Shown here: positions 16,313 to 35,110 of the stretch, piece after piece | Position numbering within the stretch: the first letter of the stretch is position 1 | How the letters are laid out: each line of letters opens with the position of its first letter | Assembly: GCA_003202005.1 (NCBI GenBank) | Contig: QJJF01000019.1 | Span: forward strand, 1-47,230 | Length of the DNA: 47,230 nucleotides | Direction: 5' to 3' | Origin: Williamsia faeni | GTDB lineage: Bacteria; Actinomycetota; Actinomycetes; Mycobacteriales; Mycobacteriaceae | Program-made: the position numbers and the translations under genes | Notes under the pieces: generated by a model | The model's database searches: none | Seen by the model: only the letters and a program-made list of their open reading frames with translations | What the model was told of the DNA's origin: nothing

Positions 16313-17044
16313 CTATCCGGCCAGATCTCGATCGCCCGTCTCTTCACGAATGACGCGGATGGTTCCGACGATGTGTCTTTCCATTTCTTCACGAGCGCGT
16401 TGTTGATCACCGTCGCGGATTGCGTCGGTGATGGCGCGGTGGTCGTGTTGGCGGTCGGCGAGAGCGTTGGAAAGCGGATTCGCGACACCGGCGGTATTGA
16501 TCAGGAAATCTGACAGGTCCCACATGCGCTGGGATGTCTCAGCCATGATTCGGGAGTGGGCCATGCGGTGTATGACTGCGTGGAACTCTCGGTTCTCGAG
16601 TCGGTAGCCGTGAGCACGGACGACGGGATCGGTTGCAGTGATGAGACCGTCGACGTGCGCAGACACGGCGTCGAGGTCTCGTAGCTGGGCATCGGTGCGA
16701 CGAAGAGCTGCGACGCCGGCGATGGTTCCTTCAAATCCGCCGAAGAGTGTGAAGAAGTCCTGGACTTCCTGCTTGCTGTACGACACCACCTGAATGCCGA
16801 CCTGGGGAACTATGTCGATCAGTTTGTCGCTCGACAGGCGCCGCAATGCATCCATGACGGGTTGTTTGCTGACACCGAATTCCTGGCGGACCGTCTCGAC
16901 AACGATCTTCTCCCCAGAGTGGTAGCGCCCTTCGAGAAGGCGGCTCTTCAGGGTGTCGTACAGCGCGGAGGACAGCCGAGCACCGGTGAGGCGGACGCTG
17001 GCCAGCGCCGCTGCCGCGTCCACAGCGGGATCGGGCGTGGTCAT
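16313..17044 (-). CDS. GntR-family regulator, FCD (FadR) type
   Basis: A 243-residue transcription factor with an N-terminal winged helix (about residues 20-90, with SALYDTLKSRLLEGRYHSGEKI and VSKQPVMDALRRLSSDKLI) and a C-terminal all-helical FCD ligand domain (about 100-230). The FCD metal-binding Asp and His are plausible in EFHAVIHRMAHS and DHRAITDAI. FCD regulators usually bind organic acids and repress a neighbouring catabolic operon. It is divergent from the seven-gene run starting at 17335, with 290 bases of repeat-rich DNA between, so control of that run is the natural inference. No good ribosome binding site precedes the ATG; it may be leaderless. Confidence 0.9.
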   Translation of the reverse strand: MTTPDPAVDAAAALASVRLTGARLSSALYDTLKSRLLEGRYHSGEKIVVETVRQEFGVSKQPVMDALRRLSSDKLIDIVPQVGIQVVSYSKQEVQDFFTLFGGFEGTIAGVAALRRTDAQLRDLDAVSAHVDGLITATDPVVRAHGYRLENREFHAVIHRMAHSRIMAETSQRMWDLSDFLINTAGVANPLSNALADRQHDHRAITDAIRDGDQQRAREEMERHIVGTIRVIREETGDRDLAG

Positions 17045-17163: not shown

Positions 17164-17228
17164 GCATTCTAGTACTTGTGGTCTGCATCACTGTAAGTTA
17201 CCGTTGACTGGAACGCTAGCATTCCAGT
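17164..17228. promoter_or_regulatory. Divergent control region with several repeats
   Basis: Three signals lie here. GCATTCTAGT is at 17164-17173. CACTGTAAGTTAC at 17189-17201 has the GTAA-G-TTAC core of the shared ACTGTAA motif. ACTGGAA (17207-17213) and TTCCAGT (17222-17228) form an exact inverted repeat around CGCTAGCA. The region lies between the GntR gene and the LLM gene. The ATGCTAG/ATTCTAG words recur at the promoter near 20280, making them candidates for GntR binding. Confidence 0.55.
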
Positions 17229-17334: not shown

Positions 17335-18408
17335 ATGGAGTTCAGTATCGGTACGTGCGCGAAAATTGACCAGGTTTCCATGGTCAAGCAGGCAGAAGAC
17401 CTCGGCGTCAGCCACTTCGGCGTAGGAGAAGGTCCTCTGCTCTTCAGTGATCCGTACCAGTTCCTGGCCCTGGCGGCTCGCGAGACCAGCACCATCAAGC
17501 TCGGCACGATGGTCACCAACCCGCTCACGCGGATCGCTCCGGTGACTGCGAATTCGATGGCCACCCTCAACGCCTTGGCGCCCGGTCGCACCTATCTCGG
17601 CATCGGCACTGCGAACAATGCGCTGCGTTCGATGGGCAATAGCCCGGCGAAGATCTCCGAACTGATGCACGCCATCGAGGTCTCGAAGGAACTGATGGCC
17701 GGCCGCCGGACGACTCATACCTGGCGCGGGCAGACCACCGAGGTGGAGTTTCTCGACAAGGAAAGCGGTTATTACAACGTCACGGACAACATTCCGATCT
17801 GGGTCGCGGCCGGTGGACCCCGCGGTTTGGCCGAGGCGGTGAAGTATGCCGATGCCATTGTCTACTGCCTCGGACCGAACACGGACATGATCAAACTGAT
17901 CCGCAGTCGCCTGGACAAGGCGGTTGCCGACGTCGGCCGTGCGCCGGGTTCGGTCAAGCTGGTGTCGCTGTCGTGGTTCTACCAGCTCGAGAACGGTGAA
18001 ACCTGGGAAGACGGCGTCACCAACGGATTTGGCTCCGGACCGATCAGCTCGTGCATCACCAACGCCGGCCTGATGGACCAGCACCGCGACATCCTCGGCG
18101 ACCAGATTGTCGATGCGTCGATCACCGCCGCCCAGCAATACCTGGGCGATCCCACTGCCGCAGACCAACCGCACTATCTCGACACCTGGGCAAAGTACCT
18201 GCGCGGCCTCGACCCCAGGCACCGGCCGATCATCACCAAAGAACTGGTCGACTACTGGTGCCTGTACGGATCGCCGGCCGAACTGCGCGAAAAGACGGCT
18301 CTGATGCGCGAATCCGGTGTCGACATCACCCAGGTCTTCCTGTCGAATCCCTTCACCGCCCGCCGTGACATCGACAAGATCGGCCATTCGATCCTCGCTC
18401 ACGCCTGA
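17335..18408 (+). CDS. LLM-class flavin-dependent oxidoreductase
   Basis: A 357-residue luciferase-like TIM barrel, using either FMNH2 and oxygen or cofactor F420. It opens with MEFSIGTCAKIDQVSMVKQAEDLGVSHFG, the usual first strand and helix, and shows IKLGTMVTNPLTRIAPVTANSMATLNALAPGRTYLGIG, the typical strand with a cis-peptide-type turn, then VWAAGGPRGLAEA-like cofactor-site sequence (IPIWVAAGGPRGL). Actinomycete members of this size are often F420-dependent reductases or dehydrogenases; flavin monooxygenases of the RutA type are the other possibility. The ATG at 17335 follows AAGGAG. It is the first gene of the run and is followed after 30 bases by the isochorismatase-fold gene. Confidence 0.9.
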   Translation: MEFSIGTCAKIDQVSMVKQAEDLGVSHFGVGEGPLLFSDPYQFLALAARETSTIKLGTMVTNPLTRIAPVTANSMATLNALAPGRTYLGIGTANNALRSMGNSPAKISELMHAIEVSKELMAGRRTTHTWRGQTTEVEFLDKESGYYNVTDNIPIWVAAGGPRGLAEAVKYADAIVYCLGPNTDMIKLIRSRLDKAVADVGRAPGSVKLVSLSWFYQLENGETWEDGVTNGFGSGPISSCITNAGLMDQHRDILGDQIVDASITAAQQYLGDPTAADQPHYLDTWAKYLRGLDPRHRPIITKELVDYWCLYGSPAELREKTALMRESGVDITQVFLSNPFTARRDIDKIGHSILAHA

Positions 18409-18438
18409 GCAATCGTCACTGAATCAAGGAGCTTCACA

Positions 18439-19056
18439 ATGGAACTCGATCCCCGCACCACCGCGCTCATCGTCGTGCATTGTCAGGGCGATGTCGTCGG
18501 CCCCGACGGCGCCTTCTCCGATTTCTTCTATAACCAGGTCGTCGAACGTGACGTCGTCGCACGCATCGGTCAACTCGCCGACGGGGTACGACGGGCCGGC
18601 GCGCACGTCTTCTACACGAGAGTGGCCTTCAAACCCGACCTGTCCGACCTCCAGGTGAACTCGCCGATTCTCGGCATTGTGGAGCAATCCGGTTGTCTCC
18701 AGGAGGGCAAGCCACTGACGGATATCATCGAGCCGCTTTCCCCGCACCCCGACGACGTGGTTATCACCCACCAGCGGGTCGGCGGGTTCGAAGGCAGCGC
18801 ACTGGACCAGGCGCTGCGCAGCCGCGGCGTCACCACAGTGGTCTTCGCCGGAGTCGCCACCAACTTTTCGGTCGAAGGTACCGCACGCGTGGCCAGCGAT
18901 CTGGGCTACCGAACCGTCGTCGTGGACGACGCGTGCTCGGCGGCCACGCCCGAGACTCATTCGTCCAGCATCCAATCGCTGAGCCTGCTCGCTGATATCA
19001 CCTCGGTCGACGAAGTGACGCAAGCCCTTTCGGTCGGCGCGGGTGGCGTCTCGTAG
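18439..19056 (+). CDS. Isochorismatase-fold protein with altered catalytic triad
   Basis: A 205-residue member of the isochorismatase/cysteine hydrolase superfamily, recognised by TTALIVV at the first strand, GGFEGSALDQALRSRGVTTVVFAGVATNFSVEGTAR and the ending helix. The family's Asp-Lys-Cys triad is missing: the first-strand Asp is His14 (VVHCQGD), the Lys is His111 (ITHQRVGGF) and the nucleophilic Cys is Ser144 (ATNFSVEG). True isochorismatases lack the Cys, but losing all three is unusual. It may use another mechanism or only bind ligand. The ATG at 18439 has AAGGAG upstream. It lies between the LLM and MDR genes, a pairing reminiscent of RutA/RutB. Confidence 0.88.
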   Translation: MELDPRTTALIVVHCQGDVVGPDGAFSDFFYNQVVERDVVARIGQLADGVRRAGAHVFYTRVAFKPDLSDLQVNSPILGIVEQSGCLQEGKPLTDIIEPLSPHPDDVVITHQRVGGFEGSALDQALRSRGVTTVVFAGVATNFSVEGTARVASDLGYRTVVVDDACSAATPETHSSSIQSLSLLADITSVDEVTQALSVGAGGVS

Positions 19057-19106
19057 CGATGCACTCGTACCCAACCTGTCGTCCAGAGAATCAAGGAGCC
19101 CGATAG

Positions 19107-20216
19107 ATGACCCAGTCGATGCTGGTGGCCCGGCTGCATGAGATCAACCAGCCCATGAAGTTGGAGAGGTTGCCGATACCGCAGCCACGCCCGACCGATG
19201 TGGTGGTGCAGGTCAAGGCGTGCAACGTTGTGCCCAACCTCAACAACGTGCTCGCCACCTATGCCGAGTGGTTTCCGTACTTGCCCCTGCCGGAGCTGCC
19301 CGCGGTGTTCGGACTGGACTCGGCCGGTGTGGTGTCTGCGGTCGGGGACGAGGTCGGCAGCGTGCAGGTGGGGGACCGGGTCTACGTCAACCCCGGACTG
19401 TCGTGTGGTGCCTGTCGTGCCTGCCATGCCGGCAAGGATCAGAACTGCGACAGCTACACCTTCATGGGGTACTTCGCCTTCGGGCCCAACGGGCAGCAGT
19501 GTTTCGATGCCTACCCCTATGGCGGTCTCGGCGAGTATCTGACAGCGCCGGGGCGGAATCTGGTCAAAATCGCCGACTCCGTCAGTTTCGAGGAGGCCGC
19601 CAGATTCGGCTACCTGGGCACCTCGTTCTCCGCACTCCGCAAGGCTGCCGCAGGACCGGACACGACAGTCCTCGTCAACGGAATTTCCGGCACACTCGGG
19701 CTAGGAGCGTGCATGAATGCCCTCGCCATGGGCGTGCCCCGCATCCTGGGGACCGGTCGTGACGCCGCACTTCTCGAGGATGTTCGCAGCATCGCGCCCG
19801 AACGAATTAGTGTGCACGCGGTCGGCGCCGGCAACGTGAGCGAGTGGGCACGCATCGAGAACGACGGCCGGGGAGTCGACATCGTCATCGACGCGGTCGG
19901 CCCCGGCGCACCCGCCGAGTCGATGCTCGACGCAATCGCTGCCCTGGGTCGCGGGGGCGTGGCCGTCGATATCGGTGGAATGATGGAAAAGCCGGCGCTG
20001 GATATGTTTTCAATGATGTGCTCGCAGATCTCAGTACTGGGCAGCCTGTGGTTCTCGACCAGAGAAGCGCAAGAGATGGCCGACATGGCCGCTCGTGGTG
20101 TCCTGGATCTGAGCGTGCTGGAGCACCACACCTTTCCCCTCGAAGAGATCAACGAAGCACTCGGCGCCCTCCCGGCGCGGCACGGCGGATTCACCAACTT
20201 CGTCAGTGTGCCCTGA
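19107..20216 (+). CDS. MDR alcohol dehydrogenase-like protein without the catalytic zinc site
   Basis: A 369-residue medium-chain dehydrogenase/reductase. The structural-zinc loop is intact: Cys100, Cys103, Cys106 and Cys114 in CGACRACHAGKDQNC. The catalytic-zinc ligands are not: the usual second Cys of KACGVCH is Val42 (KACNVVPN), the His-Glu of GHE is Leu70-Asp71 (FGLDSAG), and the later Cys is replaced by Tyr in FGYLGTSF. The Rossmann motif NGISGTLGLGA is present. It may therefore be an NAD(P)H-dependent ene or quinone-type reductase rather than an alcohol dehydrogenase. AAGGAG precedes the start. It is the third gene of the run, followed by its own palindrome-rich promoter. Confidence 0.87.
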   Translation: MTQSMLVARLHEINQPMKLERLPIPQPRPTDVVVQVKACNVVPNLNNVLATYAEWFPYLPLPELPAVFGLDSAGVVSAVGDEVGSVQVGDRVYVNPGLSCGACRACHAGKDQNCDSYTFMGYFAFGPNGQQCFDAYPYGGLGEYLTAPGRNLVKIADSVSFEEAARFGYLGTSFSALRKAAAGPDTTVLVNGISGTLGLGACMNALAMGVPRILGTGRDAALLEDVRSIAPERISVHAVGAGNVSEWARIENDGRGVDIVIDAVGPGAPAESMLDAIAALGRGGVAVDIGGMMEKPALDMFSMMCSQISVLGSLWFSTREAQEMADMAARGVLDLSVLEHHTFPLEEINEALGALPARHGGFTNFVSVP

Positions 20217-20274
20217 CCACCAATCGGACTGGTGTGAGACTTGCGTCATAGCACTGGGCCGCGTAGTTTCAATA

Positions 20275-20294
20275 CTAGACGTCTAGCATGCTAG
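20275..20294. promoter_or_regulatory. Two overlapping perfect palindromes
   Basis: CTAGACGTCTAG (20275-20286) and CTAGCATGCTAG (20283-20294) are each perfect 12-base palindromes and share CTAG, giving three evenly spaced CTAG centres. They lie 29 bases before the TfdB-like start at 20323. CTAG is rare in high-GC genomes, so this is unlikely by chance. It suggests an internal operator that separates the last four genes from the first three. Confidence 0.7.
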
Positions 20295-20322
20295 ATGCAT
20301 TAGCCGGAACGGAACGAATACG

Positions 20323-22155
20323 ATGCCTGATTTTGATACTGACGTGCTCGTCGTCGGCACCGGCCCCGCCGGGTCTGCCGCGGCACTCGCGCTGGCCACC
20401 TATGGGGTGCGGGTGCACATGGTGAGCAAATGGAACTGGCTCGCGAACACGCCTCGCGCTCACATCACCAACCAGCGCACTGTGGAAGTCTTGCGCGACT
20501 TGGGTGTTGAGGACGAGGCGGCGAAGTACGCCACCCCGTGGGAGTTGATGGGCGACACCTTGTTCGCGACCAGCCTCGCCGGTGACGAGGTCGCCCGGGT
20601 CCGCACCTGGGGGACCGGCGATGACCGGGTCGGCGATTACACCGTCGGCAGCCCCTGTGGACTGCTGGACATCCCGCAGCTCTACATGGAGCCGGTGTTG
20701 TTCAAGAACGCGGCCGAACGCGGCGCGACCTTTTCCTTCAACACCGAGTACCTCTCCCATGTGCAGGACGAGAGCGGGCTGACCGCGACCCTGCGCGAAC
20801 GCCTCACCGGACGCGAATACACGATCCGCGCCCAGTATCTCATCGGCGCCGATGGAGCTCGGTCCACCGTCGCCGACGAGATCGGCCTCAAGATCGAGGG
20901 CGAAATGGCCCGCGCGGCAACCGCTTACGTTCTTTTCAAGGCGGACTTGAGTCGCTACGTCGGGCACCGGCCCAGCATCTTGCACTGGATCATGACTCCG
21001 AGTGCCAACTTCGGCGAGATCGGCATGGGTCTGCTGCGGGCAATCCGCCCCTGGGATACCTGGATCGCCGGATGGGGTTACAACATGGCCGATGGCGAGC
21101 CCAGCTTCGACACGGAAATGGTAACCGCGAAAGTCCGTGCGCTGGTCGGCGATCCCGACCTCGACATCGAGATCCAGTCGACCTCGACCTGGCAGGTCAA
21201 TCAGGCCTGCGCCGCCACTTATTCGGTGGGTCGCGCATTCTGCGCCGGCGATGCGGTACACCGACATCCACCGAGCAGCGGACTGGGATCGAACACCTCC
21301 ATCCAGGACTCGTTCAACTTGGCCTGGAAACTCGCTTACGTCGTCAAGGGATTCGCCGACCCGGCACTACTCGAGTCCTATTCGTCCGAACGTCAACCCG
21401 TTGGTGAGCAGATCGTGGCCCGCGCCAATCAATCCCGGGTCGACTACGGACCGCTCAACGCCTGCTTCCGCACCGAAGGCGAAGCCGATCCGGTTGCGGC
21501 CGGTCTGGCCAAACTCCGCGACCCCGGTCCCGCGGGCGTTGCCGTGCGCGAAGCGCTCGCGAAGGCAGTAGAACTCAAGAACTTCGAGTTCAACGCCCAA
21601 GGCGTCGAGCTCAACCAGCGGTACAGTTCCGACGCCGTCGTTCCGGACCCTGCGGCCGGCACCGAAGAGTTTGCCCGCGACCCCCAGTTGTACCTGCAGG
21701 CCACCACCCGGCCCGGCGCCAAACTTCCGCACGCCTGGCTCGTCGACGAGCGGGGCATTCGCGTGTCCACCCTCGACGTCACCGGTAAGGGCCAATTCTC
21801 GCTTCTCACCGGTCTGGGCGGCAGAGCTTGGGAAAAGGCCGTGGCGGCATTGGATCTGCCGTTCTTGTCGGCGATCGTTGTCGGCACCAAAGGTGTCGAA
21901 GACCCCTACTGCGCCTGGCAAAAGGTTCGCGAAACCCACGAAGCCGGCGCAGTGCTGGTGCGGCCCGACGGGTATGTCGCGTGGCGCCAGACCGCAGCGG
22001 TCTGGGATGAGCACGAAGCGCTGAACCAGCTGCAGGCCGCGCTGTCATCAGTCCTCGGTGTCGATCTCGACGAGACCCCCAAGCGTGGGTCTGCCGATAC
22101 CGCAACCATATTCGAAGAGCAAGGAGTGGAACTTGAGCACGCAACCGTTCACTAG
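20323..22155 (+). CDS. FAD-dependent phenol hydroxylase, TfdB-like
   Basis: A 610-residue class A flavoprotein monooxygenase. It has the dinucleotide motif VVGTGPAGSAAA (residues 10-21), TPRAHITNQRTVEVLRDLG typical of the TfdB (2,4-dichlorophenol 6-monooxygenase) branch, the DG motif IGADGARS, the GD motif CAGDAVHRHPP and a C-terminal thioredoxin-like domain (from about residue 430). Such enzymes put a hydroxyl ortho to a phenolic OH with NAD(P)H and oxygen, giving a catechol. With the ring-cleavage genes directly behind, a catechol product is well supported; the substrate is not known. Its end overlaps the start of the MhpC-like gene by 23 bases. Confidence 0.92.
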   Translation: MPDFDTDVLVVGTGPAGSAAALALATYGVRVHMVSKWNWLANTPRAHITNQRTVEVLRDLGVEDEAAKYATPWELMGDTLFATSLAGDEVARVRTWGTGDDRVGDYTVGSPCGLLDIPQLYMEPVLFKNAAERGATFSFNTEYLSHVQDESGLTATLRERLTGREYTIRAQYLIGADGARSTVADEIGLKIEGEMARAATAYVLFKADLSRYVGHRPSILHWIMTPSANFGEIGMGLLRAIRPWDTWIAGWGYNMADGEPSFDTEMVTAKVRALVGDPDLDIEIQSTSTWQVNQACAATYSVGRAFCAGDAVHRHPPSSGLGSNTSIQDSFNLAWKLAYVVKGFADPALLESYSSERQPVGEQIVARANQSRVDYGPLNACFRTEGEADPVAAGLAKLRDPGPAGVAVREALAKAVELKNFEFNAQGVELNQRYSSDAVVPDPAAGTEEFARDPQLYLQATTRPGAKLPHAWLVDERGIRVSTLDVTGKGQFSLLTGLGGRAWEKAVAALDLPFLSAIVVGTKGVEDPYCAWQKVRETHEAGAVLVRPDGYVAWRQTAAVWDEHEALNQLQAALSSVLGVDLDETPKRGSADTATIFEEQGVELEHATVH

Positions 22156-23005
22156 CGTTTGGTCCGACTTGGCCCAAGTTGAGTTCAGTCAGGGATTCAT
22201 CCAGGCCGGCCCCTACCGGACCCGTTACCTGCATGCCGGGGACTCCAGCAAACCCACATTGATACTGCTGCACGGCATCACCGGGCACGCTGAGGCCTAC
22301 GTCCGCAATCTTGCGGTCCATGCCGAACATTTCTCGGTCTGGGCAATCGATTTCATCGGGCACGGCTACAGTTCGAAACCCGACCATCCCCTCGAGATCA
22401 AGCATTACATCGACCACTTGCAGCAGTTCATGGCCGCGATCGATGTCCAGACGGCCTACTTCAGTGGGGAGTCACTCGGTGGTTGGGTCACAGCGCAATT
22501 CGCCAGTGACCATCCCGAGAGTGTCGAGCGGATCGTCCTGAACACCATGGGCGGCACCATGGCCAACCCGAAGGTGATGGAACGGCTCTACACGTTGTCG
22601 ATGGAGGCTGCGAAAGACCCCAGCTGGGACCGGGTCAAAGCTCGACTGGAGTGGCTCATGGCCGACCCGGCGATGGTCACCGACGACTTGATCAAAACCC
22701 GCCAGGCCATCTTCGCCCAGCCGGGCTGGCTCGCGGCCTGCGAATCCAACATGGCTCTGCAGGATCCAGAAACACGGGCCCGCAACATGATCACCGACGA
22801 GGTCCTGGAAAGAATCAAGGCGCCGGCCATGGTGCTCTGGACCACCAAAGACCCGTCGGGCCCGGTCGACGAGGCGCGCCGGATCGCCTCGCACATCCCG
22901 AATTCGCGACTCGAGGTCATGGAGAACTGCGGCCACTGGCCCCAGTACGAGGACGCCGACACTTTCAACAAGCTGCACCTCGATTTCCTTCTCGACCGCA
23001 GCTGA
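22133..23005 (+). CDS. Meta-cleavage product hydrolase, MhpC-like
   Basis: A 290-residue alpha/beta hydrolase close in length to MhpC/BphD C-C bond hydrolases, which split the vinylogous 1,5-diketone made by extradiol cleavage into a carboxylate and 2-hydroxypenta-2,4-dienoate. The oxyanion motif LLHGITGHA, the nucleophile Ser114 in SGESLGGW and the catalytic His268 in CGHWPQYE are visible; the acid is probably the Asp in TTKDPSGPVD. I chose the TTG at 22133, inside the end of the hydroxylase gene, because AAGGAG lies seven bases upstream and it gives the normal length. It is coupled to the TfdB-like gene and precedes the MhpB-like gene by 29 bases. Confidence 0.9.
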   Translation: MSTQPFTSVWSDLAQVEFSQGFIQAGPYRTRYLHAGDSSKPTLILLHGITGHAEAYVRNLAVHAEHFSVWAIDFIGHGYSSKPDHPLEIKHYIDHLQQFMAAIDVQTAYFSGESLGGWVTAQFASDHPESVERIVLNTMGGTMANPKVMERLYTLSMEAAKDPSWDRVKARLEWLMADPAMVTDDLIKTRQAIFAQPGWLAACESNMALQDPETRARNMITDEVLERIKAPAMVLWTTKDPSGPVDEARRIASHIPNSRLEVMENCGHWPQYEDADTFNKLHLDFLLDRS

Positions 23006-23034
23006 GCACTGCACCGCCGAACAAGGAGGTTCTG

Positions 23035-24042
23035 ATGCCGGTCGCTCTGTGCGCCATGTCGCATTCCCCGCTGATGGGGACCAACGACCCCGAGCCGTTG
23101 GTCGTCGCCGAGGTCGACGCGGCGTTCGAGCATGCCCGCTCGTTCATCCGCGACTTCGACCCCGAGTTGGTGGTGATATTCGCGCCCGATCACTACAACG
23201 GCGTGTTCTACGACATGCTCCCGCCGTTTTGCATCGGGTCAGCGGCCACCTCGGTCGGTGACTACGGCACGCAGGCCGGTCCGCTGGATGTCGACAGGGA
23301 CGCCGCCTGGGATATCGCCAGAGCCGTGCTGGCTTCGGGCGTCGACATCGCGGTCTCCGAGCGGATGCATGTCGATCACGGATTTGCCCAGGCTCTGGAG
23401 TTGTTGACCGGCTCGATCACCGCGATCCCGACTGTGCCGGTCTTCGTGAACTCGGTCGGTGAACCGATGACACCGGTCTCGCGGATCCGGCTCCTCGGCG
23501 ACGCCGTGGGCAAGGCAGTGGCCGGCATGGACCGGCGAGTGCTGCTGGTGGGATCTGGTGGGTTGTCTCATGATCCGCCAGTCCCACAGTTCTTCGGCGC
23601 CTCACCCGAGGTGCAGGCCCGATTGATCGACGGACGGAACCCCACCGCCGAACAACGGTCAGCACGAGAACAGCGGGTCATCGATGCCGGACGAGACTTC
23701 GCGGCCGGAGTCTCCACCATGCAACCTCTCAACCCCAAGTGGGACAACCATCTGCTCGAGGTGTTGGCATCGGGTGATCTCACGCCGATCGATTCGTGGA
23801 CCAACGATTGGTTCGTCCAGCAAGCGGGACACTCGTCGCACGAAGTGCGGACGTGGATCGCGGCCTACGCAGCGCTGGCCGCGAATGGCGCGTACACGGT
23901 CGAATCGACCTACTACCGGCCGATTCTCGAGTGGATCGCCGGTTTCGGCATCACCACCGCGCTGCCGGTCACCAACGCGAAGGCTGCCACCCGACGATAT
24001 CAACACAGCGCTCTCGATCTGAAGGCCGTCGAGCCCTCATGA
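23035..24042 (+). CDS. Class III extradiol dioxygenase, MhpB-like
   Basis: A 335-residue LigB-superfamily ring-cleavage enzyme, strongly similar in pattern to E. coli 2,3-dihydroxyphenylpropionate 1,2-dioxygenase. It opens with the LCAMSHSPLMG motif and has PELVVIFAPDHYNGVFYDMLPPFCIG. The two catalytic His of the E. coli enzyme are at the same numbers, His115 in VDHGFAQ and His179 in GLSHDPP, and the ending YYRPILEWIAGFG is conserved. It inserts O2 next to the catechol diol using Fe(II), giving a meta-cleavage product for the MhpC-like hydrolase. A perfect AAGGAGGT precedes the ATG. A 3-alkyl catechol is the likely substrate class. Confidence 0.95.
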   Translation: MPVALCAMSHSPLMGTNDPEPLVVAEVDAAFEHARSFIRDFDPELVVIFAPDHYNGVFYDMLPPFCIGSAATSVGDYGTQAGPLDVDRDAAWDIARAVLASGVDIAVSERMHVDHGFAQALELLTGSITAIPTVPVFVNSVGEPMTPVSRIRLLGDAVGKAVAGMDRRVLLVGSGGLSHDPPVPQFFGASPEVQARLIDGRNPTAEQRSAREQRVIDAGRDFAAGVSTMQPLNPKWDNHLLEVLASGDLTPIDSWTNDWFVQQAGHSSHEVRTWIAAYAALAANGAYTVESTYYRPILEWIAGFGITTALPVTNAKAATRRYQHSALDLKAVEPS

Positions 24043-24067
24043 TCAAGGACCACAACAACTCTCGGCC

Positions 24068-24835
24068 ATGAATACTCTGGACGGGAAGGTCGCCCTCGTC
24101 ACCGGGGCGAGTCGAGGGATCGGCGCCGCGATCGCGTCGGCGTTGGCTCAGGCCGGTGCGTATGTTCTTGTGCACTATGGGCGCAGCCAGAGCGACGCCA
24201 ACACGGTGGTCGCCCAGATCGAGCAAGCGGGCGGACAGGCCACGGTTATACAAGCCGATCTCAGCAGTGACGACGAAGTACACCTACTTTGGGATCGCAT
24301 CGACGCGGCGCTGCATTCGCTGAATTTTCCACCACAGGTGGATGTCATCGTGAACAATGCAGGCATCAACCTTCGTGGCCGAATTGAGGACGTCGAACCT
24401 CAGCAACTCGATCAACATCTCACCGTCAACCTCAAAGCTCCGTTCTTCGTCACGAAAATGGGACTACCGCGTGTACGCGACAATGGCCGCATCATCAATA
24501 TTTCATCCGGCTCAGCACGCTACGCCCGGCCCGACATCATCGGCTACGCCATGACCAAGGGCGCGATCGAGGTGTTCACCAGAACTCTTGCCGCGCAAGT
24601 AGGTTCCCGCGGAATAACCGTCAACGCAGTCGCGCCCAGCGTCATCGACACCGACCTCAACCAGGTGTGGCTGCACGGGAACGAAGAGGCCAAACAACGA
24701 GCCGGGTCGCAGACAGCGTTCGGCACCATCGCGGTACCCGAGGACGTCGCCGCGATCGTCACATTCCTCGCATCCGCGCAGTCGCAGTGGATCACCGGAC
24801 AAACTATCGACGCCACCGGTGGTAACCGGTTGTAA
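24068..24835 (+). CDS. SDR oxidoreductase at the end of the catabolic run
   Basis: A classical SDR of 255 residues resembling FabG-type 3-oxoacyl reductases and glucose dehydrogenase-like enzymes. The cofactor motif TGASRGIG is at residues 12-19, NNAG in mid-protein, ISSGSAR carries the active Ser, Y160/K164 sit in YAMTK, and the end is TGQTIDATGGNRL. It begins 26 bases after the MhpB-like stop without a strong ribosome binding site and ends convergently 55 bases from the amidohydrolase. It may oxidise or reduce a side-chain alcohol/ketone of the substrate or product. The specific step is not readable from sequence. Confidence 0.87.
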   Translation: MNTLDGKVALVTGASRGIGAAIASALAQAGAYVLVHYGRSQSDANTVVAQIEQAGGQATVIQADLSSDDEVHLLWDRIDAALHSLNFPPQVDVIVNNAGINLRGRIEDVEPQQLDQHLTVNLKAPFFVTKMGLPRVRDNGRIINISSGSARYARPDIIGYAMTKGAIEVFTRTLAAQVGSRGITVNAVAPSVIDTDLNQVWLHGNEEAKQRAGSQTAFGTIAVPEDVAAIVTFLASAQSQWITGQTIDATGGNRL

Positions 24836-24889: not shown

Positions 24890-26182
24890 TCAGGCGGGTA
24901 TGGGTGTGCCGCGGTGGGTTTCGCTCAGCTCGCGGGGCCGCGCTTCGGTGCCGTCGCCCGGATCCTTGTGGAATGCACCGTCTTTCATGATCCCGACGAT
25001 CCGGGAGCGGTCTTGCAGGACGGTGATGTCCTCGAGCGGATCCCCGTCGATGAGGATCATGTCGGCGAGGAAGCCGGCTTTTACCTGACCGAGTTGGCCG
25101 GGCATCCGCATGATCTGTCCGCCCAGCGCGGTGGCAGCGAGCAGGGCTTCCTTCGGTGTGTATCCCAGGAGTTCGACGAAGTGCTGCAGATCGCGGGCGT
25201 AGGTGCCGTGGGGTGTCCAGGCGAATCCGTAGTCGCCACCCGGAAGGATCCGGATGCCACGTTCCTTCATCTTCTTCAAACCTGCGATGGCGCATTCGAG
25301 TTCGTGTTTGTAGCCTGCCGCTTCGGCCGCCTCGGGCGGGTATCCGAAGTCGGCGGCGTCGTTGAGAGTGGCAACGAGCCAGTTCAGGCCCGGGGCTACA
25401 AAGATCTCGTCTTTCTTGGCCTCGAGCATGTCGAGGCCTTCGTCGTCGACAAATGATGCGTGGTAGATAATGTCGACGCCGTTGCGCACCGACATCTTCA
25501 CCGATTCACCCGAGCGTGCGTGTGAGCAGACCCGCAGGCCTCGGCGGTGGGCTTCGGTGGTGGCGGCCAGGGTCTCTTCGTCGGAGAAGTAGTTGTCCTG
25601 GGCGTGCTGGTTGCCGGTGATCTCTTCGCCGGACATGCTGAGCTTGACCAGGTCAGCACCCATTTCGACGTTGCGGCGCACTTGCTTTCGCATTTCTTCG
25701 GGTCCGTCGGCGAAGGCGGTGATGCCATGGACCAGGGCGCCGCCGGTGACGGCGATCTCCTGGCAGTTGGCGAGATAGCGTGGGCCGGGGATCTGGCCGT
25801 CGTTGATGGCGTTGCGGATCACGACGTCGAGCCGAGCTTTGGCGGCGGCGGCGCCGACGCACATGGTGTAGCCGTTGTCGATGTAGGTCTGGGCCGAGCG
25901 TGCGCACAGCAGGGTGTGCTCTTCGACGCCCATCGTGCCGAGACCGGGCAGGTCGGCGGAGTTGACCCACGAAAAGTGGGTGTGGGCGTCGCACAGACCG
26001 GACATCAGGAACTTGCCCTGACCGTCGATGACACGGACACCATCTCGGGGCAGATCGCCGGTCTTCGGGCGGACGTCGGTGATGGTGTTGCCGGTGACCA
26101 GGACCTCACCTTCAAAGGGGTCGGAACCTGAGGAATCAAAGATGCGGACGTTTGTGAAGAGGATGGGCTGTTCGGACGACAT
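24890..26182 (-). CDS. Metal-dependent amidohydrolase, imidazolonepropionase-like
   Basis: A 430-residue amidohydrolase-superfamily enzyme. A beta-sandwich start (LFTNVRIFDSSG) leads to the metal motif DAHTHFS, a likely carboxylated or bridging Lys in DLVKLSMSGE, His in VCSHARSG and IIYHASFVDD, and Asp in GGDYGF. The end DMILIDGDPLEDI is typical of the prolidase/imidazolonepropionase-like group that cleaves amide or cyclic amide bonds. ATG 26182 is chosen because AAAGGAG is eight bases upstream; a GTG at 26191 is too close to it. It is 36 bases downstream of the FAH-hydrolase fusion gene, so the two are co-transcribed. It could release an aromatic amide for the facing pathway. Confidence 0.88.
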   Translation of the reverse strand: MSSEQPILFTNVRIFDSSGSDPFEGEVLVTGNTITDVRPKTGDLPRDGVRVIDGQGKFLMSGLCDAHTHFSWVNSADLPGLGTMGVEEHTLLCARSAQTYIDNGYTMCVGAAAAKARLDVVIRNAINDGQIPGPRYLANCQEIAVTGGALVHGITAFADGPEEMRKQVRRNVEMGADLVKLSMSGEEITGNQHAQDNYFSDEETLAATTEAHRRGLRVCSHARSGESVKMSVRNGVDIIYHASFVDDEGLDMLEAKKDEIFVAPGLNWLVATLNDAADFGYPPEAAEAAGYKHELECAIAGLKKMKERGIRILPGGDYGFAWTPHGTYARDLQHFVELLGYTPKEALLAATALGGQIMRMPGQLGQVKAGFLADMILIDGDPLEDITVLQDRSRIVGIMKDGAFHKDPGDGTEARPRELSETHRGTPIPA

Positions 26183-26218
26183 TGTCGTCACTCCTTTCGA
26201 GCAGAGATAGGGCAGTGA

Positions 26219-27880
26219 TCAGGGCTTGGTCAGGAACTCGGTGAGCAGGCGGGACACGGTGTCGGGGTCTTCGAGGCTGTGCCAGTGTCCGACGCCTTCG
26301 AGGACTTGGAGTTGGGCGTGCGGGTAGATCGAGAGCAGGTCGTCGTTGGTGGCGACCGGGCTCACTTTGTCCTCGTCGCCGGTGATCAGCAGGACCGGAG
26401 CGTTGATCGACGCGAAGTCTGGTTCGACTGCGGCAGCGAGTGCTTCGCAGGCACTGGCGTAGCCGTCCGGGTTCTGGCCCAGCAACAGTTCGCGAACCGA
26501 TGCCACACTCAATGGTCGTGTGGTCTTGCTCTTTTCGGAGAGGGCGGCTGCGATGATGGTGTCGGCGACCGCGGACATGCCACCTTCGCGGACTGTGCGA
26601 GCGCGGGCGCGGGTGGCAGTCTTGGCCTGTTCGGGCTGCTGCCGGACCGGCCCCAGGAGCGCGAGTTTGCTGACGCGGTCGGGGTGATTGGCCGCGAAGG
26701 TGGTGGCCACCAGTGTGCCCATGGAGTGGGCGACGAGCGCGGCCTGATCGATGCCTTTGGTATCGAGTAGTGCCAAGAGTTCGTCGACCCAGTCGTCGAT
26801 GCTATTCGGCCCGGCGACGGGGGAGCGGCCGTGACCGGACAGGTCATAGCGCAGCACCCGATGGGTTTCGGACAGTGCGGCTACCTGCGGCTCATACACG
26901 GTGGTGGCGCCACCGAGGCCGTGGATGAGGACCGCGACCGGACCATCGCCGGTCTGCTCGGTGAACAGTCGATGCGAGCCGGCTTGGACGAGGTGGTCGC
27001 GGTCGGCGGGTTCGCCGATGGTGTTGGTGAGCACGCCGAGCCCGGTGGCGGAGATGGTGACCTCGTCGCCGATCTGAAGATACTTGGGTGGGTCGAATCC
27101 GATGCCGACGCCGACGGGGGTGCCGGTGGCGATCACGTCGCCGGGCTCGAGTGTGATTCCCGCCGAGAGCGTTTCAATAATCGTCGGCACATCGAAAATG
27201 AGTTGCGCAGTGCTCGTGTTCTGGCGCAGCTCGCCGTTGACGTGGGTCTGCAGCCAAAGGTCGGTGATATCGATCTCGTCGGCGCTGACCGCCCACGGAC
27301 CGAGCGGGCAGAACGTGTCGAGCGACTTGCCGATGAACCACTGCTTGTGGTCGCGCTGCAGATCGCGTGCGGTCATGTCGTTGATCAGCGTGTACCCCCA
27401 CACGTAGTCGAGGGCGTCGGCTTTGCTGACCTTGGAGGCGCGTTTGCCGATGATCACGCCGATCTCACCTTCATAGTCCAGCGCTGAGGTGATGCCAGTA
27501 TGTGGATCGATCGCATCGCCGGAGGCAATGACGGTGGCGGCCGGCTTGGTGAACACCACCGGGTACTCGGGGACATGTTGACCGTCGGCCGAACCCGTGG
27601 CATCGAAACCGCTCTTGGCGAACTCCGCGGCGTGCTCGGAGTAGTTGCGGCCCACGCAGAATACATTGCGGTGCGGGACGATGGGTGCCAGGAGTTTGCC
27701 CGGTTCGGCGGTGTCGGCGATCGTGAGTCGGTCGGTGGCGGCCGGGCCTCCGGCGATCAGCGACTGCAGATCTCGCACCGGTTCTCCGGTATCGCTGAAC
27801 CGAACGGCTCGAGCTGCTCCGTGCTCATCGACGGCACAGAGCCGTGCACCGTCCGAACTGTGAATCCGTGCAAAACGCAC
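26219..27880 (-). CDS. Fusion of FAH-family enzyme and alpha/beta hydrolase
   Basis: One uninterrupted frame of 553 residues joins two enzymes. Residues about 1-310 are a fumarylacetoacetate hydrolase-family domain with NVFCVGRNYSEHAAE, YPVVFTKPAATV, metal ligands E137 and E139 in DYEGEIGV, GKSLDTFCPLGPW and GDVIATGTPVGVG. Residues about 320-553 are an alpha/beta hydrolase with LIHGLGG, nucleophile Ser386 in AHSMGT and His532 in VGHWHS. FAH members include hydratases, isomerases and C-C hydrolases of ring-cleavage products. The GTG at 27880 has AGGAGG six bases upstream. A fusion suggests consecutive steps on one intermediate. It diverges from a GntR gene. Confidence 0.92.
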   Translation of the reverse strand: MRFARIHSSDGARLCAVDEHGAARAVRFSDTGEPVRDLQSLIAGGPAATDRLTIADTAEPGKLLAPIVPHRNVFCVGRNYSEHAAEFAKSGFDATGSADGQHVPEYPVVFTKPAATVIASGDAIDPHTGITSALDYEGEIGVIIGKRASKVSKADALDYVWGYTLINDMTARDLQRDHKQWFIGKSLDTFCPLGPWAVSADEIDITDLWLQTHVNGELRQNTSTAQLIFDVPTIIETLSAGITLEPGDVIATGTPVGVGIGFDPPKYLQIGDEVTISATGLGVLTNTIGEPADRDHLVQAGSHRLFTEQTGDGPVAVLIHGLGGATTVYEPQVAALSETHRVLRYDLSGHGRSPVAGPNSIDDWVDELLALLDTKGIDQAALVAHSMGTLVATTFAANHPDRVSKLALLGPVRQQPEQAKTATRARARTVREGGMSAVADTIIAAALSEKSKTTRPLSVASVRELLLGQNPDGYASACEALAAAVEPDFASINAPVLLITGDEDKVSPVATNDDLLSIYPHAQLQVLEGVGHWHSLEDPDTVSRLLTEFLTKP

Positions 27881-27898
27881 TACGACCTCCTGGTGCTG

Positions 27899-27937
27899 AC
27901 CAATGTGAACCAAATGATGTACTTGGTATGTATTGGT
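27899..27937. promoter_or_regulatory. Doubly symmetric operator, ACCAAT type
   Basis: ACCAAT (27899-27904) mirrors ATTGGT (27932-27937), and ACCAA (27909-27913) mirrors TTGGT (27923-27927), all around one centre at 27918. It covers the region just upstream of the fusion gene start at 27880 and lies 118 bases before the GntR start. Autoregulation by the adjacent GntR protein is likely. Confidence 0.72.
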
Positions 27938-28018
27938 TAGAATAGGTCGAGATGCTGTGATCGTCAACACTCGACGTCAGCCGTTGTGTTGGGGACAACT
28001 GGGTGGATGCAGGCTAGT

Positions 28019-28035
28019 ATTGGTTCGAATTGGTT
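28019..28035. promoter_or_regulatory. Two direct ATTGGTT half-sites before the GntR gene
   Basis: ATTGGTT occurs at 28019-28025 and 28029-28035, ten bases apart, so both lie on the same helix face. The same word forms the right end of the symmetric operator at 27932-27938. They sit about 20 bases before the GntR ATG and could block translation or transcription initiation when bound. Confidence 0.55.
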
Positions 28036-28055
28036 GCGGAAGGGGTTGGTCGGTC

Positions 28056-28730
28056 ATGACGCTTGCGGTGGGTCCTGTGGCAGTTGCGCGGCGCCATATC
28101 GAGAGGGTGATCAGCGACGGCGGTTTCGGTCCTGGTGACAAACTGCCCACCGAACGTGAACTCGCCGCGGCCGCGGGAGTCAGTCGTGCCGTCATCCGCA
28201 CTGCGCTCGATGAACTCGCCGCGACCGGGGTTGTCGTCCGGTACGTCGGCCGCGGAACATTTCTGGCCCCACCAGCGGTGCCTGAGCCTGCTGCCGGTGC
28301 CGGATTCGCGAGCCCCGCAGAGATCATGACGGCGCGCCTGGTTCTGGAGCCCGAGATCTTGCCGGTGACGGTGTCGGCGGCAACCCAGCAGGATATCGAC
28401 GAGATGCACCGCTGCTTGCGCGGTGGCGACGCTGCCCGGGTGTCAGAGGATTTCGAACGCTGGGATACCTTGCTGCATCACAGTTTTGCGCTCGCCACCC
28501 ACAATGTGGTCCTGATCAACCTCAGTCAGCTGCTGATCGATAGTCGCAATCAGCCGATCTGGGGTGGACTCAAGCGCCGGAGCTTCAGCCCGGAACGGCG
28601 CCAGTGCTATTGCGACGAACACAAGGCGATCGTGGCTGCGATCGAAGACCGAGACCCCGACGCCGCTCGCGAAGCCATGCGGGTTCACCTGAGACATGTA
28701 CGCACAACTCTTTTGGGCGATCACACCTGA
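28056..28730 (+). CDS. GntR-family regulator, FCD (FadR) type
   Basis: A 224-residue regulator with a winged-helix domain (about residues 8-72; FGPGDKLPTERELAAAAGVSRAVIRTALDELAATG is textbook GntR) and an FCD domain (about 90-215). Metal-binding positions are plausible at the Asp of WDTLLHHSF and the His residues in EHKAIVAAI and VHLRHV. It probably senses an intermediate of the facing pathway and represses the fusion/amidohydrolase operon across the ATTGGT sites. The ATG at 28056 is preceded by GGAAGGGG. The last 15 codons and the sequence after the stop recur as a relic at 16157-16211. Confidence 0.9.
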   Translation: MTLAVGPVAVARRHIERVISDGGFGPGDKLPTERELAAAAGVSRAVIRTALDELAATGVVVRYVGRGTFLAPPAVPEPAAGAGFASPAEIMTARLVLEPEILPVTVSAATQQDIDEMHRCLRGGDAARVSEDFERWDTLLHHSFALATHNVVLINLSQLLIDSRNQPIWGGLKRRSFSPERRQCYCDEHKAIVAAIEDRDPDAAREAMRVHLRHVRTTLLGDHT

Positions 28731-28790: not shown

Positions 28791-29831
28791 TCAGTGGGCG
28801 GCCTCGGCGATCAGCTGTTCCCAATCCGACACCAGCGGATTCGTCTCTTCCGGCGCGGGGCCGGCGAGTCCCCATTGCACCATGGCACGTGTAGCGGTGA
28901 TGCACAGGACCATCGCTCCGAACGCGGTCCAATATGCTGTGTCGACGACCGGGAATCCGGTGCGTTCACTCCACCGGTTCCAGGTCTCGTGAGGTGCGGG
29001 GATCCCGGGCAACGGGTGGTCGGTCCATTTGCGATGTTGTGTATCGAGGAACAGGGCGTATCCGACATCACTGGCGGGGTTTCCGAGGTAGGCGACTTCG
29101 AAGTCGATGAGCGCCTGCACGGTGGTTCCATCCACGATCGCGTTGGCCAGTCGGGCATCTCCCATGCAGACGGACGGATTGTCGTCCCCGCCCTCGGGCA
29201 CGTTGTCCTGCAACCACCTCAACGCGGCGAGTTGGCGCGGCACGGTGTCTGCCGGGGTGACATCGAGTAGGGAACTGCGCCAGTACTCGATGTATTCGGT
29301 GCTGCCACTGGTGATCTGGTGCCCAGCCTCTTTGATCTTGCGGCCGTCGACGTTGTGTAGGTCTGCCAGGGCGTCGATGAAGCTGTTCCAGATCGCTCGC
29401 TGATCCTCGACGGTGTGGTCGCGGTACCAGCCCTCTCCGTGGTACCCGGCAGGCGTCGAGTCGATGACGGTGCGGCCGTCGATGTGCTCGAGTACGAAGC
29501 AGGGACGTCCGACGGCCTCGGGGCCCGACGCCACCGCGACAACCCGAGGCAGCGGAGCGCCGAGTTCACGGGCGGCTTCGACGATCCCGGCCTCGCGGGA
29601 AGCATTTGCGTTGTATACGACTCCGGCCGGAATGGGTGCCTTGAGCACGAGCTTCGTAGGCGCTCCGTCGATATCGAGATCGATCAGCCACGCGCCACCG
29701 GAGTGCCCTGCCGCCAGCCTCGTCACCTGGGGCGACGTGATCGTCTTGCCCAATTCGCCGGCCAGCCGCTCGAGGAGACCATCGACGTCGAGTTCGTCCT
29801 GCGCCGTTGTTGCCTCGGCATCACTGGTCAT
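28791..29831 (-). CDS. APH-fold phosphotransferase family protein, altered Brenner motif
   Basis: A 346-residue protein with the aminoglycoside phosphotransferase/ACAD10-like kinase fold. Its N-lobe has LAAGHSGGAWLIDLDI and a Lys in LVLKAPIP. The catalytic loop reads CMGDARLAN, where the usual HGDxxxxN has Met223 for His; the catalytic Asp225 and Asn are kept. The metal Asp is in LIDFEVAYLGNP. Actinomycete relatives sit in lipid, sterol and hydrocarbon clusters and probably phosphorylate small hydroxylated or CoA-linked substrates rather than antibiotics. A GAAAGGATCC precedes the ATG. It diverges from the CrtC-like gene across an ACTGTAA-type operator. Confidence 0.88.
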   Translation of the reverse strand: MTSDAEATTAQDELDVDGLLERLAGELGKTITSPQVTRLAAGHSGGAWLIDLDIDGAPTKLVLKAPIPAGVVYNANASREAGIVEAARELGAPLPRVVAVASGPEAVGRPCFVLEHIDGRTVIDSTPAGYHGEGWYRDHTVEDQRAIWNSFIDALADLHNVDGRKIKEAGHQITSGSTEYIEYWRSSLLDVTPADTVPRQLAALRWLQDNVPEGGDDNPSVCMGDARLANAIVDGTTVQALIDFEVAYLGNPASDVGYALFLDTQHRKWTDHPLPGIPAPHETWNRWSERTGFPVVDTAYWTAFGAMVLCITATRAMVQWGLAGPAPEETNPLVSDWEQLIAEAAH

Positions 29832-32497: not shown

Positions 32498-33733
32498 ATG
32501 TCGACCAAGATCATTGACGACGTTTCCCGGGTCTTCGCCGACGCCAACGCCTATACCGAGGAGGTGTCCCTCCATGCGGCCTTCACACACCTGCGTGCCA
32601 ACGCGCCCATCTCGTGGGTCGAGGCACCGAATTACCGGCCCTTCTGGGCGGTCACCAAACATGAAGACATCATGACGATCGAACGTCAGCACAATCTGTT
32701 CACCAACTCGCCGAGGCCGGTGCTTGTCACCGCGGAAGCCGACGAGCTGTCAGCTGCATCCGGCGTGAGCACCCTCATCCACATGGACGATCCGCAGCAC
32801 AAGGTCGTTCGCGCCATCGGTGTCGACTGGTTTCGGCCGAAGGCAATGCGCGCGATGAAGATTCGCGTGCAGGAGTTGGCCAAGAACTACGTCGACAAGT
32901 TGGCGGAGCTGGGTGGGGAGTGCGACTTCATGCAGGAGGTCGCGGTCAACTTCCCGCTCTACGTCATCATGTCGATGCTCGGAGTTCCGGACGAGGACTT
33001 CCCGATGATGCTGCGGTGCACTCAGGAAATGTTCGGCAGCGAGGACGAAGAGTTCAAGCGTGGTGCCGGTCCGGAAGAGCAGATGGCCGCGATGATGGAG
33101 ATGTTCACCTACTTCACCGCGTTGACCGCGTCCCGCCGGGAGAACCCGACCGACGACTTCGCCTCCGCGATCGCGAATGCCACGATCGACGGTGAGCCGT
33201 TGTCCGACATCGATACGGTCTCCTACTACCTGATCGTCGCGACGGCCGGTCACGACACCACGAGCGCCACCATTGCCGGTGGCCTGCTCGCCTTGATCGA
33301 AAACCCGGACCAGTTGCAGCGGCTGCGCGACGAGCCCGAGCTGATGACCCTGGCCACGGAGGAGATGATCCGGTGGGTGACGCCGGTGAAGTGCTTCATG
33401 CGTACCGCGCAGGAGGACACCGAGGTCGGCGGTGTGCCGATCGCCGCCGGCGAGGCATTGCTGCTGTCGTACGCGTCCGGCAATCGGGACGAAGACATCT
33501 TCGACGACCCGTTCACCTTCGATGTCGCCCGAGACCCCAACAAACACTTGGCATTCGGGTACGGGGTGCATTTCTGTCTAGGCGCTGCGCTGGCCCGTAT
33601 GGAGGTCAGCGCATTCTTCTCCGAACTCATCCCGCGGCTGGAGTCCATCGAGCTCGCGGGCGAACCGGAGTTCATGAAGACAACGTTCGTGGGCGGGCTC
33701 AAGCATCTGCCGATCCGGTACTCCGTCAAGTAG
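32498..33733 (+). CDS. Cytochrome P450
   Basis: A 411-residue class I bacterial P450. The I-helix has the canonical AGHDTT (residues 250-255), the K-helix ExxR reads EEMIR and the haem motif FGYGVHFCLG carries the ligand Cys360. The opening, with a VFADANAYTEE-type N-terminus and ISWVEAPNYRPFWAVTKHEDI, resembles mycobacterial P450s of the CYP125/142/124-related clade that hydroxylate sterols and methyl-branched lipids, though I do not assign a family. The ATG follows AGAAGGAG. It is followed by a strong terminator and is monocistronic. Redox partners are not encoded in the window. Confidence 0.95.
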   Translation: MSTKIIDDVSRVFADANAYTEEVSLHAAFTHLRANAPISWVEAPNYRPFWAVTKHEDIMTIERQHNLFTNSPRPVLVTAEADELSAASGVSTLIHMDDPQHKVVRAIGVDWFRPKAMRAMKIRVQELAKNYVDKLAELGGECDFMQEVAVNFPLYVIMSMLGVPDEDFPMMLRCTQEMFGSEDEEFKRGAGPEEQMAAMMEMFTYFTALTASRRENPTDDFASAIANATIDGEPLSDIDTVSYYLIVATAGHDTTSATIAGGLLALIENPDQLQRLRDEPELMTLATEEMIRWVTPVKCFMRTAQEDTEVGGVPIAAGEALLLSYASGNRDEDIFDDPFTFDVARDPNKHLAFGYGVHFCLGAALARMEVSAFFSELIPRLESIELAGEPEFMKTTFVGGLKHLPIRYSVK

Positions 33734-34879: not shown

Positions 34880-35024
34880 GGGACCACGGTTTCTGAAGAT
34901 GGATGTTTGCTTGTTGTTGCAGACAGCGGTGGACAGATTGCGGCGACAGTGAGAAGCGAACAGACGTCCTGCATTCCGCCACGGTATCCAAGGATGAGCC
35001 TTCGGGAAGCAGTTTGGTGGTTTA

Positions 35025-35039
35025 CTGTTGCAACAACAG
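35025..35039. promoter_or_regulatory. Inverted repeat CTGTTG-CAA-CAACAG
   Basis: Exact 6-base arms around CAA, 72 bases before the acyl-CoA synthetase start and 146 bases upstream of the APH-like start. A related TTGTTGTTGCAGACAG lies at 34911-34926. It is probably the operator of this divergent pair. Confidence 0.6.
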
Positions 35040-35110
35040 AAAGGCTGTCGAGAATTGATGTCAAACGATCGAGACCGCCACCCGCAGATAGCAATACCCA
35101 GGGAGTAAGC

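Follow-up and report, generated by a model that had tools for sequence, protein, structure and literature searches.

Several described systems resemble the locus reported here, a run of seven genes in a 47,230-nucleotide stretch of the Williamsia faeni genome (GenBank assembly GCA_003202005.1, contig QJJF01000019.1, positions 1 to 47,230; below, the window, which is contig 19 of the 5.52 Mb host genome). The ohp operon of Rhodococcus sp. V49, reportedly described by Powell and Archer in 1998, is said to hold the genes for 2-hydroxyphenylpropionate as a regulator, transporter, monooxygenase, hydrolase and dioxygenase; we liken it by description and not by sequence, and we know of no luciferase-like monooxygenase (LLM), isochorismatase-like or medium-chain dehydrogenase/reductase (MDR) module in it. 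In the hcd cluster of Pseudomonas mandelii 7HK4, as presented in the accessible parts of its papers, HcdE, an enzyme of alcohol dehydrogenase (ADH)/MDR type, reduces 7-hydroxycoumarin, and a flavin hydroxylase, an extradiol dioxygenase and a hydrolase follow (PMC6222606, PMC7913881); coumarin itself is reduced 17-fold more slowly (PMC7913881). The XenA/couC/mhp route of Pseudomonas NyZ480 likewise combines reduction of the coumarin double bond and opening with meta cleavage of MhpB type, according to the available portion of its description (PMC13181038). For Actinomycetales, the accessible text of a 2012 paper proposed reduction of coumarin by F420H2, hydrolysis, a melilotate hydroxylase and extradiol (meta) cleavage, and called for experiments on the fate of coumarin (PMC3288000). 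The window joins a ring-cleavage set of this kind to LLM, isochorismatase-fold and MDR genes. From sequence evidence we propose, tentatively and with rather less than even confidence, that they form one GntR-controlled catabolic cluster in which a plant-type lactone of the coumarin kind would be reduced and opened, and the product then hydroxylated, cleaved by the MhpB-type enzyme and hydrolysed.

The first three genes of the run belong with the ring-cleavage genes in one cluster. A search of genome contigs seeded with the LLM, in which the partner genes were then sought by local tblastn, returned 21 loci from Rhodococcus, Rhodococcoides, Aldersonia, Antrihabitans, Nocardia, Pseudonocardia, Geodermatophilus, Blastococcus, Actinomycetospora, Prauserella and metagenome-assembled genomes labelled Frankiales and Actinoallomurus. 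The isochorismatase-like gene follows the LLM gene in all of these but L044 (20 of 21; L numbers denote loci of relatives), and 20 of the loci have a regulator, 19 have a ring hydroxylase (15 TfdB-like and 4 HpaB-like), 18 have MhpB and 11 have the MDR gene, several loci stopping at contig ends. As an LLM query might bias the outcome, a second survey took the hydroxylase as its starting point; it covered 301 genomes of the family and 394 of the class and gave 63 matched places outside the window, of which 62 were examined; one in genome G019, at a contig edge, was left out. These counts are of loci and not of independent events, as the same species or genome can enter twice (for example L031 with L051, and L041 with L067) and genomes are met again through plasmid records. 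Where the hydroxylase is at least 64% identical, MhpB is present in 18 of 18 loci and the isochorismatase-like gene and regulator in 16, the two loci that lack the isochorismatase-like gene being short contigs of 4.1 and 6.8 kb. At 61% identity or below there are 44 loci, all of which lack MhpB, LLM and the isochorismatase-like gene at E 1e-12, while two have a distant MDR (45 and 48%); the break between the close and the distant group is sharp.

The first-pass annotation, made from the letters of the window, had proposed a single linked pathway. Its reservation, that homologues might always keep the first three genes apart from ring cleavage, falls away, as the isochorismatase-like gene stands beside the ring-cleavage genes in 16 of 16 assessable hydroxylase loci. 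A chance arrangement is excluded because the gene set is conserved across many genera. LLM, isochorismatase-like, MDR and hydroxylase genes are contiguous in this order in Aldersonia and Antrihabitans (L028, L029, L030, L045); elsewhere they are divergent, interspersed or reordered.

The LLM protein is probably an F420H2-dependent reductase. A profile search of the PDB gave 11 solved relatives, ten of them named as Mer or F420 enzymes and the eleventh, 9hav, an F420-dependent glucose-6-phosphate dehydrogenase by its entry title; Mer, an F420 enzyme, is the closest and occupies Foldseek ranks 1 to 8. The host encodes an F420-dependent glucose-6-phosphate dehydrogenase of its own (660 bits), which favors this assignment. 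The label zinc-type given earlier to the MDR protein stands as far as the family and the structural cysteines are concerned, but not for the catalytic metal: when aligned to 1rjw, at what we take to be its catalytic-zinc ligand positions, the protein has Val, Leu and Tyr, and the replaced motifs are common to 16 of 16 aligned sequences. LLM occurs without MDR in L033, L034, L036 to L040, L043, L046, L047, L050 and L150, and MDR without LLM in L068, L069, L148 and Priestia aryabhattai p-LAD1 (L072, Bacillota). L148 lacks the LLM gene, with 0.2 kb from the palindrome described below to the isochorismatase-like gene and an intact MDR gene, while in L146 all that remains of LLM is a diverged fragment (a gapped alignment over residues 85-304 of 357) beside an intact MDR gene. 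One or both reductases are present in all 16 assessable loci of the hydroxylase survey (LLM in 13, counting the L146 fragment, and MDR in 14, in three of them without LLM). This pattern of presence and absence suggests that LLM and MDR stand in for one another, in which case they would perform the same role.

The isochorismatase-fold protein has a predicted fold that is firmly isochorismatase-like (predicted local distance difference test score, pLDDT, of 91.6; TM-score 0.91 to 3kl2), and its alignment to YecD and to biuret and triuret hydrolases places His14, His111 and Ser144 where these have Asp, Lys and Cys, except that YecD has Gly at the third position. Among 38 distinct stretches of at least 45% identity, 35 read H-H-S and two H-N-S, and one is truncated, so that Asp-Lys-Cys is replaced in 37 of the 37 complete ones. 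In the 12 stretches below 45%, the third residue is T, I, V or A wherever position 14 is His, and five stretches read otherwise (D-K-A, D-K-G, E-R-A twice, and one with K-C). With Asp-Lys-Cys lost, the covalent cysteine mechanism is not open to this subfamily and amidase chemistry of the usual type is unlikely; the amide unmasking that the first-pass annotation had entertained is not supported for this protein.

The same residues bear on a reading modeled on RutA/RutB of pyrimidine degradation, in which the LLM would act as an FMNH2 monooxygenase and the isochorismatase-like protein would be an amidase, together unmasking the phenol from an N-heterocycle or amide. The pairing of the two folds is alike, and fold matches include RutB and, lower listed, RutA; however, the replacement of Asp-Lys-Cys throughout the complete close stretches speaks against it, the window LLM is nearer to F420 enzymes, and the flavin reductases found in clusters accompany the HpaB-type hydroxylase. 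An HpaB-type oxygenase with a flavin reductase replaces the TfdB-like hydroxylase in L033, L036, L038, L046 and L072, weaker flavin reductase matches (34-40%) lie near L031, L048, L049, L051 and L146, and a single query found no homologue in the window at E 1e-12. We regard this reading as improbable. A flavin reductase was also considered as a partner of the LLM and set aside, its position beside the HpaB-type hydroxylase in L033, L036, L038 and L046 explaining its presence.

The lower half of the cluster is known chemistry of the mhp/ohp/hcd type. The hydroxylase has 2-hydroxybiphenyl 3-monooxygenase (509 bits) and 2,4-dichlorophenol 6-monooxygenase (488 bits) as its closest solved relatives, the hydrolase has HsaD (107 bits), and the dioxygenase scores 504 bits against the NCBIfam model for 3-carboxyethylcatechol 2,3-dioxygenase (NF009910, cut-off 291), a result that favors a propionate side chain. 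The mhp/ohp-type set of MhpB-type LigB-family dioxygenase, C-C hydrolase and phenol hydroxylase is thus present, and these family assignments support the route from phenol to catechol to meta cleavage that had been read from the window; relatives show the order GntR, major facilitator superfamily transporter, hydroxylase, hydrolase, MhpB. MhpD, MhpF and MhpE were not found in the window. Of the two earlier suggestions, that the lower pathway lies elsewhere or is replaced by a fumarylacetoacetate hydrolase (FAH) fusion protein, the first is supported: contig 18 of the host carries an MhpD-F-E set that shares 63, 81 and 86% identity with the one within a Gordonia sp. JH63 cluster, and the host's other acetaldehyde dehydrogenase locus, on contig 4, shows 36-53% identity. 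The contig 18 set adjoins an open reading frame (ORF) that resembles, by eye, a regulator of L047 that is presumably of IclR type. The FAH fusion is unneeded for the lower pathway, and no close homologue of it, of its amidohydrolase neighbor or of the second GntR gene of the window was found in L007 to L046, the best matches being 37-38% to the FAH part.

We propose that the LLM (with F420H2) or the MDR enzyme (with NAD(P)H) would saturate an unsaturated ortho-phenolic lactone or acid, and that the isochorismatase-fold protein would open the lactone, or help to open it, by non-cysteine chemistry, the order of these two steps being provisional. HqiA offers a precedent for lactone opening by this fold, yet keeps D, K and C according to the accessible part of its description (PMC5430456). 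From coumarin, the presumed product would be 3-(2-hydroxyphenyl)propionate (melilotate), which the TfdB/HbpA-like enzyme would hydroxylate to a catechol; the MhpB-type dioxygenase would cleave the ring, the HsaD/MhpC-like enzyme would release succinate and 2-hydroxypentadienoate, and MhpD/F/E from the other contig would complete degradation. A melilotate-type ortho-phenol with a propionate side chain fits a hydroxylase nearest to 2-hydroxybiphenyl 3-monooxygenase and an MhpB above the 3-carboxyethylcatechol cut-off, and coumarin, our best guess for the substrate, fits a reductase and a proposed lactone opener upstream. The earlier supposition that the first genes act before ring cleavage is in this respect probably right.

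The same architecture might instead serve another ortho-phenolic precursor, such as a chromanone, a benzofuranone, 2-hydroxycinnamate, another coumarin or an alkylphenol, the upper proteins trimming the side chain and the lower half remaining unchanged. 2-Hydroxybiphenyl 3-monooxygenase accepts 2-alkylphenols, hydroxylase and hydrolase types differ among the relatives, and L047, from the same genus, retains both the LLM and the isochorismatase-like gene, its dioxygenase being only 37% identical. The window MhpB nevertheless lies above the 3-carboxyethylcatechol cut-off and nothing positive points to any single alternative; we hold such a precursor to be a serious possibility, if a doubtful one. 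Gene order raises a different question, since the LLM and isochorismatase-like genes lie between dioxygenase and hydrolase genes in L036 to L040 and L043 (Pseudonocardia, Actinomycetospora, Geodermatophilus, Blastococcus), as might be expected if LLM, MDR and isochorismatase-like proteins acted once the ring is open, either on the ring-fission product or on the acid released by the hydrolase. The standard hydrolase and MhpD/F/E already explain that route, however, and isochorismatase-like genes are also present at loci that have a cupin protein or a Rieske oxygenase but lack MhpB, which makes action after cleavage improbable.

Two elements overlooked by the first-pass annotation head the cluster: a GntR/FCD regulator gene, and between it and the LLM gene a near-perfect palindrome, ACTGGAACGCTAGCATTCCAGT, which is a probable GntR operator. 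Of 33 regulator-bearing stretches, 26 have its core, GAAYGCTAGCRTTC, with at most two mismatches, between the regulator and the first gene, regardless of which gene leads (LLM; HpaB in L036, L038 and L046; MhpB in L040 and L043), and L037 and L039 have a copy with three mismatches at the same place. In 728,589 bases, GAAYGCTAGCRTTC gave 35 matches, of which 28 fall in regulator/first-gene intergenic regions, one upstream of the L044 LLM gene and six elsewhere; for 20 shuffled palindromes the number of matches ranged from 0 to 27, wherever located. The window palindrome is the only exact copy in the 5.5 Mb host genome. At up to two mismatches the host has 26 sites against 32 for a reversed control, so weaker host sites mean nothing, and at that threshold none lies upstream of MhpD/F/E on contig 18.

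A number of observations weigh against a single, GntR-controlled coumarin pathway. For the LLM, the F420 assignment depends on about 20% identity and a model of moderate confidence (pLDDT 73), FMN-dependent LLMs also match the fold at weaker E-values, and FDR-A/B, F420 coumarin reductases of proven function, are members of a different family, related to PPOX. Dihydrocoumarin hydrolyses spontaneously, as the accessible parts of two papers state, and a dedicated opener is perhaps unnecessary (PMC7913881, PMC3288000). MhpB homologues of L047 (207 bits) and Priestia (200 bits) fall under the cut-off of 291, L044 has an LLM at 62% with none of the partner genes, and the second cluster of L024 combines an isochorismatase-like gene with an MhpB homologue (33%) but includes neither LLM nor MDR. 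The palindrome is absent from its expected place, even at three mismatches, in L033, L034, L068, L069 and L072, and at up to two mismatches no copy was seen to precede the hydroxylase operons that stand apart in L024, L026, L032 and L035; in L024 and L035 another GntR gene lies beside that operon, which argues against a single regulon everywhere. Finally, isochorismatase-like genes occur in settings that are not mhp-like and suggest a broader or different role of the family. On pCAR1.3 (L066, 4986-5579) such a gene (H-H-V, 37%) lies beside Rieske oxygenase, short-chain dehydrogenase/reductase (SDR) and dienelactone hydrolase genes. On pRop44186_a of R. opacus (L063, 2342-14290), two of them (H-H-T and H-H-S) and two MDR genes lie around an LLM gene (28%) and genes for a cupin-domain protein and a distantly related FAD monooxygenase; this may be a further form of the same upper module.

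The distribution of the cluster is patchy, which suggests that it is mobile. Of 301 genomes of the family, 15 have LLM (E 1e-60), the host among them; among eight other genomes of the genus it occurs only in G059, in a 48% version, and the hydroxylase in none at E 1e-150. Thirteen of 72,556 plasmid records carry LLM (E 1e-30; 12 Rhodococcus and 1 Gordonia; 87-90% identity), and transposase genes are close by in two of the four plasmid regions opened. The G059 copy belongs to a second, diverged cluster (L047, contig 29, 4410-12928) with hydrolase and isochorismatase-like genes, MhpB (37%), LLM (48%), then MhpD/F/E and two regulator-like ORFs, which we take to be IclR. In the Bacillota version (L072, 2572-14874), MDR, isochorismatase-like, HpaB-type, MhpB (30%) and MhpD/F/E genes are joined by an FAD synthetase-family gene, near a beta-glucoside phosphotransferase system and a glycoside hydrolase family 1 gene; we found no relevant publication on the Priestia strain.

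The layout of the window cluster is given in Table 1. Pfam and NCBIfam assignments agree with the seven plus-strand ORFs and families read earlier, and the coordinates with a head-to-tail order: the intervals along the run are 30, 50, 106, -23, 29 and 25 bp, the sole overlap (23 bp, between hydroxylase and hydrolase) depending on the probable TTG start. An AAGGAGG motif precedes the dioxygenase start. SDR homologues of 48-64% identity occur in the clusters of L022, L024, L026, L030, L031 and L045, and most other clusters are without one. Downstream, a 583-residue protein in which an FAA-hydrolase domain is fused to a PcaD-like alpha/beta hydrolase (26219-27970, minus strand; the FAH fusion above) is adjoined by an amidohydrolase gene (24890-26191) and a divergent GntR gene (27933-28730), and the three are perhaps a separate small catabolic unit. 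The window also holds two cytochrome P450 genes (3336-4568 and 32498-33733), near which lie genes for an APH-family protein (28791-29831) and an ecdysteroid-kinase-like/APH-family protein (33800-35257).

Table 1. Genes and putative control element of the cluster, with positions in the window.
Feature	Position	Strand	Family or remark
GntR/FCD regulator, divergent from LLM gene	16313-17044	-	Pfam GntR + FCD
Near-perfect palindrome, probable GntR operator	17207-17228		Predicted; between regulator and LLM gene
LLM-family oxidoreductase (Bac_luciferase)	17335-18408	+	PF00296; probably F420H2-dependent reductase
Isochorismatase-fold protein	18439-19056	+	PF00857; H14, H111, S144 replace Asp-Lys-Cys; proposed lactone hydrolase
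MDR-family reductase	19107-20216	+	ADH_N/ADH_zinc_N, PF08240/PF00107; proposed NAD(P)H ene-reductase
Class A flavin hydroxylase	20323-22155	+	FAD_binding_3 + Rng_hyd_C; probably ortho-substituted phenol substrate
Meta-cleavage product hydrolase (HsaD/BphD/MhpC class), alpha/beta hydrolase	22133-23005	+	Probable TTG start 22133
MhpB-type extradiol dioxygenase (LigB/MhpB)	23035-24042	+	ATG 23035; NCBIfam NF009910
SDR-family dehydrogenase, accessory	24068-24835	+	Homologues in part of the relatives' clusters

Among described clusters, four were considered and rejected on the accessible portions of their sources: the 2-isopropylphenol ipp cluster, whose gene table differs (PMC12442392), the skatole ska cluster, with no LLM or isochorismatase mentioned (PMC13101512), the p-cresol/styrene clusters of R. 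opacus 1CP, with no match recognised (PMC13101518), and ifc of Variovorax, where isochorismatase, extradiol and luciferase are not mentioned (PMC11069340). In the open-access literature, as far as its texts could be consulted and with subscription papers outside the scope, we found no description of the LLM/MDR/isochorismatase-like module. The cluster defines an isochorismatase-fold subfamily with all standard catalytic residues replaced, presents two unrelated and apparently interchangeable reductases, and can be recognised in sequence searches by its probable operator palindrome. It is conceivable, if on balance unlikely, that it represents the missing actinobacterial coumarin pathway, with an F420H2-dependent LLM replaceable by MDR and a new class of non-cysteine isochorismatase-fold lactone hydrolase, borne on Rhodococcus and Gordonia plasmids, spread through other actinobacterial families and present in an MDR form in Priestia. 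The hcd cluster, compared by description, differs in having HcdD, HcdF and HcdG (chorismate-mutase-like, cupin-like and FMN reductase) in place of the LLM and isochorismatase-like proteins, and in HcdB, which the accessible text terms type I (PMC6222606, PMC7913881). The NyZ480 route, in the available portion of its 2026 description, relies on XenA reductases of the Old Yellow Enzyme family, and its genes are in part dispersed; each of the 23 strains that carry the complete gene set belongs to the Pseudomonadota, and the survey made with that set places complete coumarin utilisers only in that phylum (PMC13181038). Beside these systems, the Williamsia cluster is a concrete and testable candidate for an actinobacterial coumarin route.

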